51,647 nt of DNA from Spirochaetae bacterium HGW-Spirochaetae-2 (GTDB lineage: Bacteria > Spirochaetota > Spirochaetia > Sphaerochaetales > Sphaerochaetaceae): contig PGXW01000047.1 in assembly GCA_002839355.1 (NCBI GenBank), positions 1-51,647 on the forward strand, read 5' to 3'. Positions 272-7,519 of this stretch are shown here, in pieces (position 1 is the stretch's first letter; each line of letters begins with the position of its first letter). The notes beneath the pieces were generated by a model. The model ran no database searches. It was not told the DNA's origin and saw nothing but the letters and a program-made list of their open reading frames with translations. The translations under genes and the position numbers were made by a program.

Positions 272-398
272 GAAACCTCCAAGCATATGAGACGAGCATT
301 CATTTGCTTTTCCCCGCAGGGACACTTTAGGTTCAGTTGAAAAAATATGCAATAATCATTCCACAGCGAATGGGAAAGCCACTACCGAATGGTGGTGA

Positions 399-427
399 TT
401 GACATGATTCGTGATCTTCCCTATGCT
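399..427 (+). promoter_or_regulatory. Sigma70-type promoter of the thiamin operon
   Basis: TTGACA at 399-404 and TATGCT at 422-427 are separated by exactly 17 bp. A transcript would start near 434, about 12 nt before the first TPP aptamer, which is where a riboswitch leader should begin. Confidence 0.7.
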
Positions 428-445
428 GACGACTATAGTACGAAA

Positions 446-520
446 GCGGGGGGACTCTTCGGAGTTGAGAAGGTAGAACCTGACCCTTGGAACCTGGCAG
501 TTAACACTGGCGTAGGGAAG
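446..520 (+). promoter_or_regulatory. TPP riboswitch, copy 1 of 3
   Basis: The 75-nt aptamer has the TPP (THI-box) layout: a P3 hairpin ACTC-TTCG-GAGT (454-465), the core TTGAGA (465-470, consensus CUGAGA), ACCCTTGGAACCTG, a short P5 hairpin, and the conserved CGTAGGGAAG (511-520). The closing helix is short, AGC (446-448 region) with GCT after GGGAA; copies 2 and 3 have TGC with GCA, a compensatory change. It lies upstream of thiD-thiM-cytX-thiE, the expected regulon. Copy 1 is followed by its own terminator. Confidence 0.93.
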
Positions 521-546
521 CTGAAAGATGCACACCGGTCAATCAA

Positions 547-567
547 CTCCCCACGGGGAGATTTTTT
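547..567 (+). terminator. Intrinsic terminator after TPP riboswitch 1
   Basis: Stem CTCCC/GGGAG with loop CACG (547-560) followed by ATTTTTT. It sits 27 nt after the aptamer's last conserved base, as expected for the expression platform of a transcription-terminating riboswitch. Confidence 0.85.
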
Positions 568-580
568 ATACACTAGCGAT

Positions 581-655
581 GCGGGGGGACTCTTCGGAGT
601 TGAGAAGGTAAAACCTGACCCTTGGAACCTGGCAGTTAACACTGGCGTAGGGAAG
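581..655 (+). promoter_or_regulatory. TPP riboswitch, copy 2 of 3
   Basis: Identical to copy 1 over the aptamer except G to A at position 611 in the P3a region. It starts exactly 135 bp after copy 1. The closing helix is TGC/GCA instead of AGC/GCT. It is followed by a second independent terminator at 682-702. Confidence 0.93.
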
Positions 656-681
656 CAGATGGATCCATTCAGGACAATCAT

Positions 682-702
682 CTCCCTACGGGGAGTTTTT
701 TT
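682..702 (+). terminator. Intrinsic terminator after TPP riboswitch 2
   Basis: Stem CTCCC/GGGAG with loop TACG (682-695) followed directly by seven T. Same stem as the terminator after copy 1 but with a different loop and flanks, so each aptamer has a complete expression platform. Confidence 0.87.
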
Positions 703-715
703 ATATACAAGCGAT

Positions 716-790
716 GCGGGGGGACTCTTCGGAGTTGAGAAGGTAGAACCTGACCCTTGGAACCTGGCAGTTAACACTGGCGTAGGGAAG
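716..790 (+). promoter_or_regulatory. TPP riboswitch, copy 3 of 3
   Basis: Aptamer identical in sequence to copy 1, starting exactly 135 bp after copy 2. Unlike the first two it is not followed by a hairpin plus T-run. The 791-861 leader holds two weak hairpins (arms ATCAA/TTGAT and ACTTG/CAAGT) and the thiD ribosome binding site GAGGAGGA at 848-855. Copy 3 may therefore act on translation of thiD, or have lost its terminator. Confidence 0.92.
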
Positions 791-861
791 CAATACATCA
801 ATCCGAATCATTGATAGTACTTGTCTTTTCCAGCAAGTGACACATATGAGGAGGATTTGAG

Positions 862-1662
862 ATGAAACATGTATTGACCATCGCCGGCTCGGATTGCAGC
901 GGCGGTGCCGGCATCCAGGCAGACTTGAAGACATTCGCAGCTCATGGTGTATATGGAATGAGCGTCATTGTCTCCGTAGTCGCCGAGAACACCCAACGGG
1001 TGATAGGAGCAGAAAACGTCTCTCCAAAACTGATAGTTGACCAGTTGCAGGCAGTTTTTGAGGACATCCGTGTAGATGCGGTCAAAATCGGAATGCTACC
1101 CTCCCAGTTGGTCATGGAGATAGTCGCCAGGGAGCTGAAGGAACGAAAACCCAGGAATATTGTTCTGGATCCTGTGATGATAGCAAAGAACGGATTTGCC
1201 CTCATGGATTCCAGATTGGCACGGACCTTGGCTGATTTGGTTTTGCCGTATGCCGATGTGGTAACCCCCAACATTCCGGAAGCGGAAGTCCTTGCCGATA
1301 TGCGTATTGCTTCAATTGAAGATATGGAAGAGGCAGCACGTAGGATTCACGGGTATGGTCCACCCTATGTGCTGGTCAAAGGTGGTCACCGCAGTGATGC
1401 TGCTGCCGATCTGCTGTATGACGGAAACAGGATGCTGTGTTTCACCGCAAAACGAATAGATACTAAAAATACGCACGGAACAGGGTGTACCTTTTCATCG
1501 GCAATTGCTGCGAACCTTGCATTGGGCAAACCTATCGAAAAAGCGGTGGAACAAGCAAAGGCGTTTGTGACCATGGCCATCGAACACGCATTGTCTTTAG
1601 GGAAGGGGTGCGGTCCAACACATCATTTTTATGATCTCTACAACAATGGATTAGCCCGATAA
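862..1662 (+). CDS. thiD: Hydroxymethylpyrimidine (phosphate) kinase ThiD
   Basis: This enzyme phosphorylates HMP, and then HMP-P to HMP-PP, the pyrimidine half of thiamin. The 266-residue length is normal. The N-terminus carries the family hallmark AGSDCSGGAGIQAD, and near residue 195 lies NTHGTGCTFSSAIAA, the anion-hole and catalytic cysteine motif of ribokinase-like ThiD. A strong GAGGAGGA precedes the ATG by about 6 nt. It is the first gene behind the triple TPP riboswitch and is followed after 14 bp by thiM. No thiC, thiG, thiF or thiH is present here, so this operon is for salvage of HMP and thiazole and not for de novo synthesis. Confidence 0.96.
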   Translation: MKHVLTIAGSDCSGGAGIQADLKTFAAHGVYGMSVIVSVVAENTQRVIGAENVSPKLIVDQLQAVFEDIRVDAVKIGMLPSQLVMEIVARELKERKPRNIVLDPVMIAKNGFALMDSRLARTLADLVLPYADVVTPNIPEAEVLADMRIASIEDMEEAARRIHGYGPPYVLVKGGHRSDAAADLLYDGNRMLCFTAKRIDTKNTHGTGCTFSSAIAANLALGKPIEKAVEQAKAFVTMAIEHALSLGKGCGPTHHFYDLYNNGLAR

Positions 1663-1676
1663 GGAGGAGCAATATC

Positions 1677-2501
1677 ATGGATACGAAACAGATGTACTCA
1701 AACAGTACGGAGATACTGCAGACTGTACGAAAGAAAAAACCAATCGTTCATCAGATTACCAATTACGTCACGGTACAGGATTGTGCCAATGTGGTCCTTG
1801 CTATGGGAGGTTCTCCCATTATGGCGGATGCTGAACAAGAGCTGGAAGACATTGTTCGCTTGAGCAATGCTTTGGTCATAAATATCGGGACCCTCAATGG
1901 TCGAACACGTTCCTCGATGTTCACAGCTGCCCACATTGCGCGAGATTCTGGCATCCCCATCATTCTCGATCCGGTAGGAGCGGGAGCTTCCTCCTATAGG
2001 ACCCAAACCGTACAAAACTTGATTTCTGACCTGGTTCCCAACGTGATTCGAGGAAATCTTTCAGAGATTCGAAGTGTTGCACAGCTGAGTAGTCATACCT
2101 TGGGTGTCGATTCTGCTGGCTGTGACGGTGCCGAACAGGTTGAAGAAACCAAGGAAATTGCTTGTAATCTTTCCCGGAAACTTGGATGTATCGTTGCCAT
2201 CACCGGCAAGATCGACATTGTCTCGGATGGTACATCCATAGCAATCATTGAAAATGGACATCCCGCACTGACGCGGATTACGGGAACAGGATGTATGAGT
2301 ACTGCGATGGTCGGGACCTGCTGCGCAGTAACCGATGACTATTTCTCGGCTACCGTTACGGCCCTTCTCGGTATGGGTATTGCCGGAGAACTGGCAAGCG
2401 TGCACGCCGGTTTGGGAAGTTTCCATACCGCTCTATTTGACCATTTCAGCAGACTTGATGGTGCTCTCCTGATGCAAAGGGGGAACCTCTATGTCAAATG
2501 A
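1677..2501 (+). CDS. thiM: Hydroxyethylthiazole kinase ThiM
   Basis: ThiM phosphorylates 4-methyl-5-(2-hydroxyethyl)thiazole, the salvaged thiazole half of thiamin. The 274 residues match the family: KPIVHQITNYVTVQDCANVVLA near the N-terminus, GGSPIMADAEQE, INIGTL, LDPVGAGAS, and TGTGCMST with the catalytic cysteine near residue 200. AAGGAGGAGC lies upstream of the ATG. The gene overlaps the next one (the transporter starts at 2491), which indicates translational coupling inside the TPP-controlled operon. Confidence 0.96.
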   Translation: MDTKQMYSNSTEILQTVRKKKPIVHQITNYVTVQDCANVVLAMGGSPIMADAEQELEDIVRLSNALVINIGTLNGRTRSSMFTAAHIARDSGIPIILDPVGAGASSYRTQTVQNLISDLVPNVIRGNLSEIRSVAQLSSHTLGVDSAGCDGAEQVEETKEIACNLSRKLGCIVAITGKIDIVSDGTSIAIIENGHPALTRITGTGCMSTAMVGTCCAVTDDYFSATVTALLGMGIAGELASVHAGLGSFHTALFDHFSRLDGALLMQRGNLYVK

Positions 2502-3693
2502 TTCTCCTACCAGAGGGTTTTCGAGCCGTTCATTGTTCCTTATTTGGGCAGGGGCAGCAATTTCTGTTGCCGAGATACTTTCGGGAAGTGTACTGGCTTC
2601 CCTCGGTATGTCGTCCGGACTGGTGGCAATTCTCCTGGGGCACACGATCGGAGGTGCCCTGTTGTATCTTGCTGCAACCATGAGCAGCTCCTTACGAGCT
2701 TCGGCGATGGAATCGACCCGTTACTCTTTTGGAATCTACGGATCGTATGTTTTCTCAGGTTTCAATATCCTTCAGTTGGTGGGATGGACATCCATCATGA
2801 TGCTGCAGGGCTCCCGTATCCTTGACCAGATAACCGTATCACTGTATGGATACAGCAATCCCAACCTCTGGATGATCGGGATTGCCCTGTGCATTTCCAT
2901 CTGGTTGTTGTACATATCGCGCCAACATGCACAACTCAATGGTCTGGTGGTTGTACTGTTGCTGCTGTTGAGCCTGGTGATGGGATATCGGCTCATATGT
3001 GATCTTGCCTTCAATGCCGGAGAAGGTGTGTGGCCGACAATTACCTTTTGGCAGGGAGTGGAATTGAATATCGCCATGTGTCTCTCATGGTTACCCTTGA
3101 TAGGGGATTACACCCAACATGCCAGGCAGACGAGAAGCGGCCCGCTGTGGAGTGCCGTTGGCTATTCGGTTGTAGGAAGCTGTATGTTTGCATTGGGGCT
3201 GGGGTTATCCCTTGTTACCGGGAGTTCTGATATTGCATTGATGCTGACAATCTCAGGGTTTGGGTTGGCTTCGCTTTTCATTGTATTTTTTTCGACCGTA
3301 ACCACCACCTACCTGGATGTATATTCAGCGAGCGATAGTTTCATGAATATATGGCCTTTGAGTCACGGAAAGGTGCTTTCCATACTCTTTACGTTCATCA
3401 GTCTGCTCATCGCCCTCCTGCTGCCGATGGATACCATTGAACCGTTTCTGTATCTCATTGGAGCCATATTCTCTCCCCTGTACGCCCTGTTGTTCGTCGA
3501 TTACTTTATCCTCCACAGAACTTCTGCGCAAACAAACTCCTGGAATCTGACAAACATGACACTCTGGGGCCTTGGTGTTGCGCTGTACTTCCTGATGCAG
3601 GCGTTTCTCATCGATGTTAGTAATTCCCTGCTCATATTCCTTATCGTCGGTGGCACCAGTGTGATTATTAAAAAGAGGCAAAAACGTGTGTAA
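2491..3693 (+). CDS. cytX: NCS1-family hydroxymethylpyrimidine transporter (CytX-like)
   Basis: A 400-residue membrane protein with about 12 hydrophobic segments, of the nucleobase:cation symporter-1 family. The segment around LIWAGAAISVAEILSGS at residues 15-31 matches the first helix of CytX-type proteins, which are repeatedly found under TPP riboswitches and are thought to import HMP. It starts 11 bp before the end of thiM and itself overlaps thiE by 8 bp. Placement between the two kinases and ThiE supports a role in bringing in thiamin precursor. The substrate is inferred from context and not from a binding-site reading. Confidence 0.87.
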   Translation: MSNDSPTRGFSSRSLFLIWAGAAISVAEILSGSVLASLGMSSGLVAILLGHTIGGALLYLAATMSSSLRASAMESTRYSFGIYGSYVFSGFNILQLVGWTSIMMLQGSRILDQITVSLYGYSNPNLWMIGIALCISIWLLYISRQHAQLNGLVVVLLLLLSLVMGYRLICDLAFNAGEGVWPTITFWQGVELNIAMCLSWLPLIGDYTQHARQTRSGPLWSAVGYSVVGSCMFALGLGLSLVTGSSDIALMLTISGFGLASLFIVFFSTVTTTYLDVYSASDSFMNIWPLSHGKVLSILFTFISLLIALLLPMDTIEPFLYLIGAIFSPLYALLFVDYFILHRTSAQTNSWNLTNMTLWGLGVALYFLMQAFLIDVSNSLLIFLIVGGTSVIIKKRQKRV

Positions 3694-4345
3694 GGTGGAC
3701 TATACCTTGTATATGGTAACCGATCGAACACTCATGGGAACCAAGACCTTGGAAGAGTGTGTCGAACAAGCTCTTTCCGGAGGTGTCACGTTGGTGCAAT
3801 TGCGGGAAAAACATCTGGATACCGAAGCCTTTGTCATGTTGGGCAAACGGATCAAGCGCCTCTGCGATGCATACGATGTCCCTCTGGTGATCAATGACCG
3901 GCTGGATGTTGCTCTAGGTGTGGATGCAATTGGGTTACATATTGGTCAGCATGATCTGTCGGTTTCCGAGGCACGCGCAATTCTGGGCCCAAACCGCTTG
4001 TTGGGTGTTTCGGCGACCACTGTGGTTCAGGCTGAAAGAGCCCAAGCTGATGGAGCGGACTATCTGGGGGTTGGGGCCATGTTTGTCACCCAAACCAAAC
4101 AGGATGCTTCGTATGTTTCTCTACAAACTTTGGCAGCGATACGCAAAGCAGTGAATCTGCCGATCGTGACCATCGGTGGCATGGACAAGGAGACAATTGT
4201 TCTGTGTGCCCCATATGGTGTGCAAGGGTTTGCCGTAGTTTCAGCCCTCGTCAGCCAACCGGACGTTTTCCTTGCTGCCAAGGAGCTGAAACGATGCTCG
4301 AAAGCGTATGTTCGTCCTGTTCCTCCCGCATTATATGGGACCTGA
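3686..4345 (+). CDS. thiE: Thiamine-phosphate synthase ThiE
   Basis: ThiE joins HMP-PP and thiazole phosphate to make thiamin phosphate. The 219-residue protein is a TIM barrel with the expected motifs: GVTLVQLREK (diphosphate-binding), INDRLDVALGVDAIGLHIGQHD, GADYLGVGAMFVTQTK and VTIGG. The start is a GTG at 3686, overlapping the end of the transporter gene, with AGAGG 8 nt upstream. It is the last recognisable thiamin gene of the operon. I see no clear terminator directly after it. Confidence 0.95.
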   Translation: MCKVDYTLYMVTDRTLMGTKTLEECVEQALSGGVTLVQLREKHLDTEAFVMLGKRIKRLCDAYDVPLVINDRLDVALGVDAIGLHIGQHDLSVSEARAILGPNRLLGVSATTVVQAERAQADGADYLGVGAMFVTQTKQDASYVSLQTLAAIRKAVNLPIVTIGGMDKETIVLCAPYGVQGFAVVSALVSQPDVFLAAKELKRCSKAYVRPVPPALYGT

Positions 4346-5647: not shown

Positions 5648-6240
5648 TTAGCTTCGCGTTACAAGAGCCATCAATCGAAAAAGCTCCTTAGCAAAATCGC
5701 ATTTGAACGGCACTGATGGATCGTTCTGGTGAATTCTCAAGTTCTCGAGACTGTGACAGTCGATATCTATAGGTATGTCTCCCTTCTCATAGGTTTCTCC
5801 GATGAACATCCTGAACGACGGCATGTATTCCTTGCTATGTAAGGGGGTGGCGAAGTGAAGCCTGCCGACACAAGATGTCCACCACCACTCCAGCTTGGAC
5901 CGGTCACAGTGCATGGAAAGGAAGTCTTCGAAATTCTGGTACGAGAAGAGGAAATCGGGGATGTCGTTGGGTTTTTCCGATAATTGTCCAAATCGGCATT
6001 ATCGTTGCGTTGATACCTGTCCCAATCCACCCAGATGAGGATGCTTGCTGCTCTATTCTCCTTCCTCACTTCCATATATTTTTTCACTACAGGCGAATAT
6101 TGTCCACCATTCGAAGGCCGAGGGATAAAATGTAGGGGTATATCCTCCTCTTCCAGATACCGGTTCAGCTCTTGGATATATGCCTTCTCGGAAGCTCCTT
6201 CGCACACGATGATTATGTTTCGATTTTGTCTATACACCAA
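5648..6240 (-). pseudogene. rloB: RloB-family (AbiLii-like) protein, frameshifted
   Basis: The N-terminal part (TTG at 6240, or GTG at 6237) reads RNIIIVCEGASEKAYIQEL and later ILIWVDWDR, the E...DxD acidic pattern of the RloB family, which resembles Toprim-type nucleases. After about residue 89 the frame runs into unrelated sequence, while the -1 frame continues naturally through DIPDFLFSYQNFEDFLSMHC and on to the stop at 5648. Joined, the product would be about 197 residues, the usual RloB size. The break lies at a GGAAAAACCC run (complement of 5969-5978), so a lost base, a sequencing error or slippage are all possible. It begins 13 bp after the RloA-type ATPase, as expected for a two-gene abortive-infection operon. 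Confidence 0.8.
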
Positions 6241-6253
6241 TTAGCCTTCCCGG

Positions 6254-7519
6254 TTAAATATATGAGTGGGGGATTCCTGAAAAGGTTCCATCAAGATACT
6301 GTTTCCTGAAGTTGGTCACGTTCCTAACACCTTCGAAGTCGGATATCCGCTTGAAAACCGTCCCTCTCTTCAATGTCCTGTTTACGATTCCAATTTCGGA
6401 TACCCGCATCATGTCCTGCTCCATGATATCCGTATTGTGCGTAGTGAAAATCAGCTGTGCATTCGATGTATTGTACCTTCTGTCCTTGAACATCCTCACA
6501 ATCTCTGCAAATAGATACGGGTGGAGGGAGTTCCCCAGCTCATCGATTACCAGTATGTTTCCCCTTCTTAGCGCGGTGAGTACAATTCCGAGCAAACAAG
6601 CAACTCGCTGAGTCCCTAAGGATTCTTCATTAAAATTAAATTGTACCTCATTTCCAAGAACATCTTCGTGATATGACTTGATCTCGGTTGCCATGATCTT
6701 TTTGTTGGAGATGCTGACTTCATTTTTGCTTCCTGGAAAAGCTTTGACTTCTTTACCCAGCGTATCCTTCTTGTATTCCATGCGCGTGATATCGATATCC
6801 AATTTCCGCAGGATCGTGACAATATCTTCAAAGGCTTTTTGCTTATCTACTTCAGTGTTTGTATTCGCCAATCTGTCCAACCAAAAGGAAAAGGGGAAGT
6901 TGTTATCTGAATACACCTCAAGGTTATTGGTGATGAATCCATATGCAATTGTCATAGAATCATTCAATCCTGCATAGTTCTTTCCGACCACCGTGATGAA
7001 TGGAGTGGTGAACTGTCGTTGTTGATCTAGGCATTCTACCGAGAATATGGTGTCAAGCTTGTTGGATGGATACACCTCGGTGGCTAAGGCTGTGAACGAC
7101 GTGTTCCTGTTCGCTATGGAAAAGACGATGTCGCTGTTCTCTACGAGTTTCTCAGTTACGATCTCCTCCCCGTTTACTTCCAGCATATACAGGAACCTCC
7201 TGCCTGCTTTCAGGAATTCGAGTTTGAACGAAGTGATATCGTCATGGGGATGCAATTTGTTGGGTGAGATATTATTCGGGTTGTACCTGTCTTTGATGAT
7301 CCTGACAAGCGATGCAAAAGCTTTTACGATGTTGGATTTTCCCGAGGCATTCGCCCCGTATATGGCCAGACACGGAATGGTCCGGGCATCACCTTCTTCC
7401 ATGAATGGCAGCAACTCCATCTGTCTATACCCGTTTGGGGCTTTCTTCTCCGCATACGTCAAGGGAACGATGAGGTCTAGGATCGATCTATAATTGTTGA
7501 CTTTGAAAGACAATAACAT
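6254..7519 (-). CDS. rloA: RloA/AbiLi-like AAA ATPase (AAA_15 type)
   Basis: A 421-residue ABC/SMC-like ATPase of the type that guards phage-defence effectors. It has FKVNNYRSI at the N-terminus, Walker A GANASGKSN (residues 55-63), a signature-like NEESLGTQR (297-305), Walker B ILVIDE (322-327) followed by SLHPYL, and the switch histidine in TTHNTDIM (361). The immediate downstream partner is RloB-like, the arrangement of AbiL/RloAB systems, in which the ATPase is thought to sense infection and release or activate the partner. The ATPase itself appears intact although the partner is frameshifted. The start at 7519 gives the family-typical N-terminus. Confidence 0.85.
   Translation of the reverse strand: MLLSFKVNNYRSILDLIVPLTYAEKKAPNGYRQMELLPFMEEGDARTIPCLAIYGANASGKSNIVKAFASLVRIIKDRYNPNNISPNKLHPHDDITSFKLEFLKAGRRFLYMLEVNGEEIVTEKLVENSDIVFSIANRNTSFTALATEVYPSNKLDTIFSVECLDQQRQFTTPFITVVGKNYAGLNDSMTIAYGFITNNLEVYSDNNFPFSFWLDRLANTNTEVDKQKAFEDIVTILRKLDIDITRMEYKKDTLGKEVKAFPGSKNEVSISNKKIMATEIKSYHEDVLGNEVQFNFNEESLGTQRVACLLGIVLTALRRGNILVIDELGNSLHPYLFAEIVRMFKDRRYNTSNAQLIFTTHNTDIMEQDMMRVSEIGIVNRTLKRGTVFKRISDFEGVRNVTNFRKQYLDGTFSGIPHSYI

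Follow-up and report, generated by a model that had tools for sequence, protein, structure and literature searches.

Why should a single leader carry three nearly identical TPP-class aptamers, and what would each copy contribute to control of the genes downstream? The array that raises this question lies in a stretch of 51,647 nucleotides (hereafter the window) at the start of contig 17 of a Sphaerochaetaceae assembly (G000; 3.6 Mb, 99.8% complete), with a TTGACA-N17-TATGCT promoter upstream and a thiD-thiM-cytX-thiE salvage operon downstream. The best explanation of the whole, to which we assign a probability of about 0.8, is that three TPP OFF switches would act in series, two on transcription and the third most likely on translation.

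Architecture of the array and its operon

Sequence reading and repeat tools confirmed the preliminary description of three TPP-class aptamers in an exact 135-nt period. The 75-nt cores begin at positions 446, 581 and 716; copies 1 and 3 are identical, and copy 2 differs by one change, from GGTAGAACC to GGTAAAACC. The compensatory change in the closing pair is real, with A...T in copy 1 and T...A in copies 2 and 3. In the 51.6-kb window, Tandem Repeats Finder reported no array other than the TPP triple (score 596). Both spacers are 60 nt long and each contains a predicted intrinsic terminator, making copies 1 and 2 two complete transcription platforms, and a terminator search over positions 300-900 found none after copy 3, all as first described. 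That description did not cover the aptamer subtype or why it escapes Rfam's cut-off, nor the promoter and operon, nor the mechanism of copy 3, which is likely a different one; all are set out here.

Table 1 Features of the TPP-class array and the salvage operon, in window positions
Feature	Position	Strand	Evidence or remark
Sigma-70-type promoter TTGACA-N17-TATGCT	399..427	+	Expected transcript start a few bases before aptamer 1
TPP aptamer copy 1, A-U closing pair	445..522	+	RF00059 49.8 bits, E 8.2e-9; hit 438-536
CGTAGGGA of aptamer 1, putative antiterminator 5' strand	511..518	+	Pairs with 548-555, one A-C mismatch; shuffle p 0.012
Predicted intrinsic terminator T1 (CTCCCCACGGGGAG + T-run)	547..567	+	CTCCCCACGGGGAG-ATTTTTT at 547-560
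TPP aptamer copy 2	580..657	+	RF00059 49.7 bits, E 8.5e-9; hit 573-671
CGTAGGGA of aptamer 2, putative antiterminator 5' strand	646..653	+	Perfect 8-bp match to 683-690; shuffle p 0.002
Predicted intrinsic terminator T2 (CTCCCTACGGGGAG + T-run)	682..702	+	CTCCCTACGGGGAG-TTTTTTT at 682-695
TPP aptamer copy 3	715..792	+	RF00059 50.8 bits, E 4.5e-9; hit 708-806
thiD leader after copy 3, no terminator	793..861	+	Modelled sequestor 796-804 with 853-857/861-864 (Shine-Dalgarno, start codon)
Shine-Dalgarno AGGAGG	849..854	+	7 nt upstream of thiD ATG
thiD, HMP/HMP-P kinase	862..1662	+	TIGR00097, 348 bits
thiM, hydroxyethylthiazole kinase	1677..2501	+	TIGR00694, 271 bits; NF006830, 310 bits
cytX, putative HMP transporter	2491..3693	+	TIGR02358, 326 bits, over cut-off
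thiE, thiamin-phosphate synthase	3686..4345	+	TIGR00693, 206 bits

All four genes of the operon exceed their curated NCBIfam cut-offs. Neither thiC nor thiL was found in the G000 genome, the two hits for thiL being read as SelD and PurM, and a thiamin pyrophosphokinase is present. This gene complement indicates that the cell salvages HMP and HET through the operon or imports thiamin. TMP made by ThiE would presumably need to be dephosphorylated to thiamin before TPP synthesis. Elsewhere in the window, on the minus strand, an RloB-like gene lies beside an AAA_21/AAA_15 ATPase (5648-6240 and 6254-7519), a pair reminiscent of RloA-RloB type systems; the RloB-like gene looks frame-broken, with a Pfam match to its first half only.

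Expression platforms of the three copies

T1 and T2 were the only distinct terminator-like sites in positions 300-900 (three rows, two of them overlapping; 0.6 expected in shuffles), and the terminators range from -7 to -11 kcal/mol. The antiterminators were assessed by how much pairing the aptamer 3' strand gains with the spacer, as far as the terminator loop, relative to 1000 dinucleotide shuffles; this gain exceeded the shuffles in all ten distinct inter-copy spacers of the arrays (p 0.001-0.047). The pairing between CGUAGGGA and UCCCUACG competes both with the aptamer (P4, J5-4) and with the terminator stem. Counting against the preferred explanation, T1 of the window has an A-C mismatch in the antiterminator and a terminator stem shorter than that of the sister genome G123. 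The aptamers, the promoter, the two predicted terminators with their competing antiterminators and the conservation of these elements are all apparent in the sequence.

We propose that a single transcript starting just before aptamer 1 would run past three serial TPP-sensing OFF switches before reaching thiD-thiM-cytX-thiE. Without TPP, the aptamer 3' strand CGUAGGGA of switches 1 and 2 would pair with the 5' arm and loop of the terminator, forming an antiterminator, and RNA polymerase would continue. With TPP bound, CGUAGGGA would be kept in P4/J5-4, the terminator would form, and transcription would halt. A ligand that holds a strand so that a terminator can form is the standard OFF mechanism. 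Transcripts escaping both terminators would reach aptamer 3, where translation of thiD would most likely be controlled through the Shine-Dalgarno region. The net effect would be a very tight repression of HMP/HET salvage at sufficient TPP, with full expression only at low TPP.

In the leader after copy 3, the modelled anti-sequestor (782-834) takes in the 3' strand of aptamer 3. In the predicted fold, the Shine-Dalgarno sequence and the start codon (GGAUU and GAUG) are paired with CAUC-AAUCC; the alternative is a long hairpin that uses the GGGAAG of the aptamer; analogous alternative folds can be drawn in the diverged leaders of G090 and G112. Sequestration of the Shine-Dalgarno sequence was no better than in shuffled leaders (joint p 0.10 in the window and 0.04-0.47 in relatives), and the leaders after copy 3 showed no covariation, the near-identical ones being too alike. 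As to a platform for each aptamer, copies 1 and 2 have a terminator and an antiterminator, and the platform of copy 3 comes from modelling only. In another genus of the family, g11, single aptamers of the same A61-U62-less type described below (L121, L122, L123, L132 and others) precede thiD with anti-Shine-Dalgarno hairpins such as CTCCTTACGTTAAGGAG and without terminators. These hairpins, together with the absence of a terminator, help the translational reading, and copy 3 probably controls translation.

Alternatively, only copies 1 and 2 might work as switches, with copy 3 a relic or a folding helper that has no expression platform of its own. We consider this unlikely. It would account for the missing terminator and for a sequestor and anti-sequestor that shuffled leaders equal, but aptamer 3 is conserved as well as the other copies in all arrays, the leader that follows it is 97% conserved between genera, and the g11 leaders indicate that translational use of this aptamer type exists in the family.

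Under the preferred reading of three serial switches, what a third copy may add can be estimated with a series model of identical, independent switches. We infer such mutual independence for the array. With a leak of 10% per switch, the model gives 10-, 100- and 1000-fold repression for one, two and three copies, respectively. The third copy adds little steepness (apparent Hill coefficient 1.26 versus 1.19 for two) and places the midpoint at lower ligand. The steeper control anticipated in the preliminary description is therefore modest on paper, and the larger gain lies in the multiplied repression and the lower midpoint. The array probably provides a very tight shut-off, and a plausible benefit of three copies is very low expression of the salvage genes at sufficient TPP.

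Aptamer class and the A61-U62-less subtype

In a permissive RF00059 scan of positions 350-900 (a 551-base search), all three copies matched the covariance model over positions 1-105 of 105, with E values from 4.5e-9 to 8.5e-9, which bears out their assignment to the TPP class. Their scores (49.7-50.8 bits) all lie under Rfam's gathering score, which is a curation threshold of 54.3 bits and no biological feature, and for this reason scanning the whole window with default Rfam settings gave no match. The low scores are likely due to the deletion of A61-U62 of J4/5 and to a short P1, both visible in the alignment. We take this numbering to be that of E. coli thiM, from the 2GDI sequence. It agrees with the numbering of conserved bases in PMC3764141, where U39-A43 (UGAGA), U59, G60, C77, G78 and A80 are listed as highly conserved in the pocket of TPP riboswitches. 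All of these pocket bases are present in the three copies. The 2-nt deletion relative to the J4/5 of the Rfam consensus occurs in 3/3 copies, and A61-U62 lies outside the listed near-invariant positions. Together with the sub-threshold scores, this deletion counts against the preferred explanation.

The same two bases are also missing from aptamers that pass the Rfam cut-off (L048, 62.7 and 62.5 bits; L044, 61.2 bits; L041, 61.8 bits), and copy 2 of the Sphaerochaetaceae array in G090 (L038) passes it as well, with 54.7 bits. Bacillota members pass Rfam's own cut-off, and the subtype therefore belongs to the TPP family. The fetched loci fall into two sets, with either 14 or 16 nt from G60 to C77. 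In those with 14 nt, P3a is short (AGGTNNAACCT), and UGAGA, G60, C77 and G78 are intact. In the subtype alignment, covariation is seen in P5 and P3, with changes on both sides in seven pairs and a covariation score of 0.152 versus 0.083 in shuffles. R1, a covariance model of the subtype built partly from the copies in the window, scores those copies at 102-103.5 bits. Within the Sphaerochaetaceae, R1 gives subtype members at least 79 bits, one degraded copy in G079 56 bits and the remaining TPP matches less than 47 bits; intermediate scores occur in other groups, where the boundary is less sharp. By alignment and model score, the aptamers belong to a subtype that also occurs in thiD leaders of Bacillota, and are not decayed copies.

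Two further loci were observed. The degraded copy belongs to another subtype pair (L150, contig 378 of G079, 2611-2842; R1 98 and 56 bits for the first and second copy), which precedes thiM-thiE and not thiD. In G000, the second and only other TPP riboswitch (L152, contig 80, 17144-17242; 65.2 bits) is of the ordinary 16-nt type with A61-U62 and precedes a thiBPQ-like (thiamin ABC transporter-like) operon.

Judging from the conserved pocket, the ligand of the array is most likely TPP. The same architecture might instead sense a precursor, thiamin or thiamin monophosphate, through the A61-U62-less subtype; the available text of PMC9481103 mentions, as unpublished work, a preference for thiamin or TMP in some RNAs assigned to the TPP riboswitch class. 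A61-U62 adjoins G60, the metal-contacting base of J4/5 in the pyrophosphate pocket. Among Sphaerochaetaceae, the deletion cleanly marks off a subtype in the leaders of thiD, thiM and thiE, and the transporter leader of the same genome retains both bases. However, the array keeps G60, C77, G78, U59 and an intact UGAGA pyrimidine pocket, and the subtype is tied to thiD operons by descent, so that gene context alone is no argument for another ligand. A change of ligand thus appears highly doubtful. Slightly less probable again is its fuller form, in which three thiamin/TMP specificity variants in series (two on transcription, one on translation) would control salvage while a canonical TPP aptamer would control the transporter in the same cell.

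Distribution, history and relation to known arrays

Comparison with related genomes revealed triples in six genomes of two genera, each with the same operon downstream and with periods of 135-136 nt: G000 and G123 of its own genus, and G101, G111, G115 and G116 of genus g17. Doubles occur in G114 and G112 (g17) and in G090 (g16), and several of the arrays lie in assemblies of one or two contigs. The arrays of G123, G101, G111, G115, G116 and G114 are preceded by an identical -35 hexamer and a TATGCT or TATGTT -10 element at 17-nt spacing. The arrangement is real and common to related genera. Searches with R1, whose strict filters may lose weak hits, covered 295 genomes from the order to which L048 belongs and 393 sampled Spirochaetota genomes, and detected no triples beyond these six.

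Over most of the array, the copies group by position rather than by genome. Six arrays share one and the same aptamer 1, including the A-U closing pair; the most frequent aptamer sequence was seen ten times, mostly at positions 2 and 3. Across genomes, sequences from the same position are mostly more alike (81-100% in spacer 2 of the triples and 88-100% in the leader downstream of the last copy) than are spacers from different positions of the window (79% between spacers 1 and 2). The positional similarity implies that the array is older than the split of the two genera. The recent duplication suggested from near identity is not borne out, since both genera have the triple in the same copy order and copy 1 is identical in five other arrays. 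Gene conversion, also suggested, or turnover holds locally and not as the general origin of the array: units 1 and 2 of G101 are identical, at 136 nt each including the spacer, which represents a genuinely recent homogenisation, and in G114 one unit is missing and the remaining spacer fuses the beginning of spacer 1 with the end of spacer 2.

The near-identical 75-nt cores and the exact period in G000 could by themselves point to a recent duplication or an assembly artefact. Either is extremely improbable given triples in six genomes of two genera, doubles that extend to a third genus, and several assemblies of one or two contigs; as a general explanation, recent duplication is ruled out by the positional orthology of the copies. 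The repeat is almost certainly not coding: a 141-aa open frame (389-814, plus strand) crosses the whole array and repeats every 45 codons, since 135 is divisible by three, but in relatives periods of 136, 138 or 146 often break the frame while the RNA structure is retained.

A thiD tree (quick method, pattern-search sampling, midpoint root) places the array-bearing Sphaerochaetaceae as one group within a Bacillota-dominated clade (98*). The single-copy thiD genes of g11 form a separate group beside Enterococcus, apart from the array-bearing genomes. This separation suggests that the operon and its riboswitch were likely transferred at least twice from Bacillota-like donors.

The array places same-class aptamers in one leader without an intervening gene, as in tandem pseudo-cooperative systems. 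The available text of PMC9481103 defines pseudo-cooperative and bi-mechanism arrangements and counts 213 tandem TPP representatives with one triple, and that of PMC12452182 gives TPP-TPP-TPP at 2-8% of tandem-controlled thiE, thiD, thiM and thiC genes in Bacillota. The rarity claimed in the preliminary description is thus supported, but triple TPP arrays were already in the literature. As described in these texts, the Bacillota triples likewise have three consecutive TPP-class aptamers upstream of thiD, thiM, thiE or thiC; by those descriptions, and not by sequence, the window array is set apart by its occurrence in Spirochaetota, its scores under the Rfam cut-off and its terminator-less last copy. 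The tandem TPP riboswitch of Bacillus anthracis tenA (Welz and Breaker 2007, as summarised in the available text of PMC9481103 and PMC12121620) is likewise a pseudo-cooperative OFF system of independent aptamers with their own terminators, although it has two copies instead of three and its last platform is a terminator. The Ruminococcaceae/Clostridiales loci L048, L050, L049 and L044 also carry tandem A61-U62-less aptamers before thiD, in two copies with a period of about 153-167 and with a terminator after the last copy where read (L048, L049 and L050). A leader with three complete switches that all belong to one class is likewise known for another ligand, with other genes. Two mechanistic levels in one leader, as proposed here for copy 3, are described for the SAM-II/SAM-V bi-mechanism tandem in the available text of PMC9481103; that tandem combines two structural classes for one ligand, whereas the window has one class and its translational part is modelled.

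The array is therefore a rare example of a type of control element that was already known. What is new is that it occurs and is conserved in Spirochaetota, escapes the Rfam threshold, ends in a terminator-less copy and carries the subtype deletion, the published triples being compared by description. In the collection of papers searched, no literature linking Sphaerochaeta and riboswitches was found. These data add a triple TPP riboswitch outside Bacillota that is conserved between two genera. Default Rfam thresholds miss the whole array, and surveys would consequently undercount such arrays. The A61-U62-less subtype is also a concrete candidate for the TPP-class specificity variants cited above as unpublished. 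The relatives provide a natural series of one, two and three copies of one subtype (the g11 singles, the doubles of G114, G112 and G090, and the six triples), so that the worth of additional copies can be tested directly.
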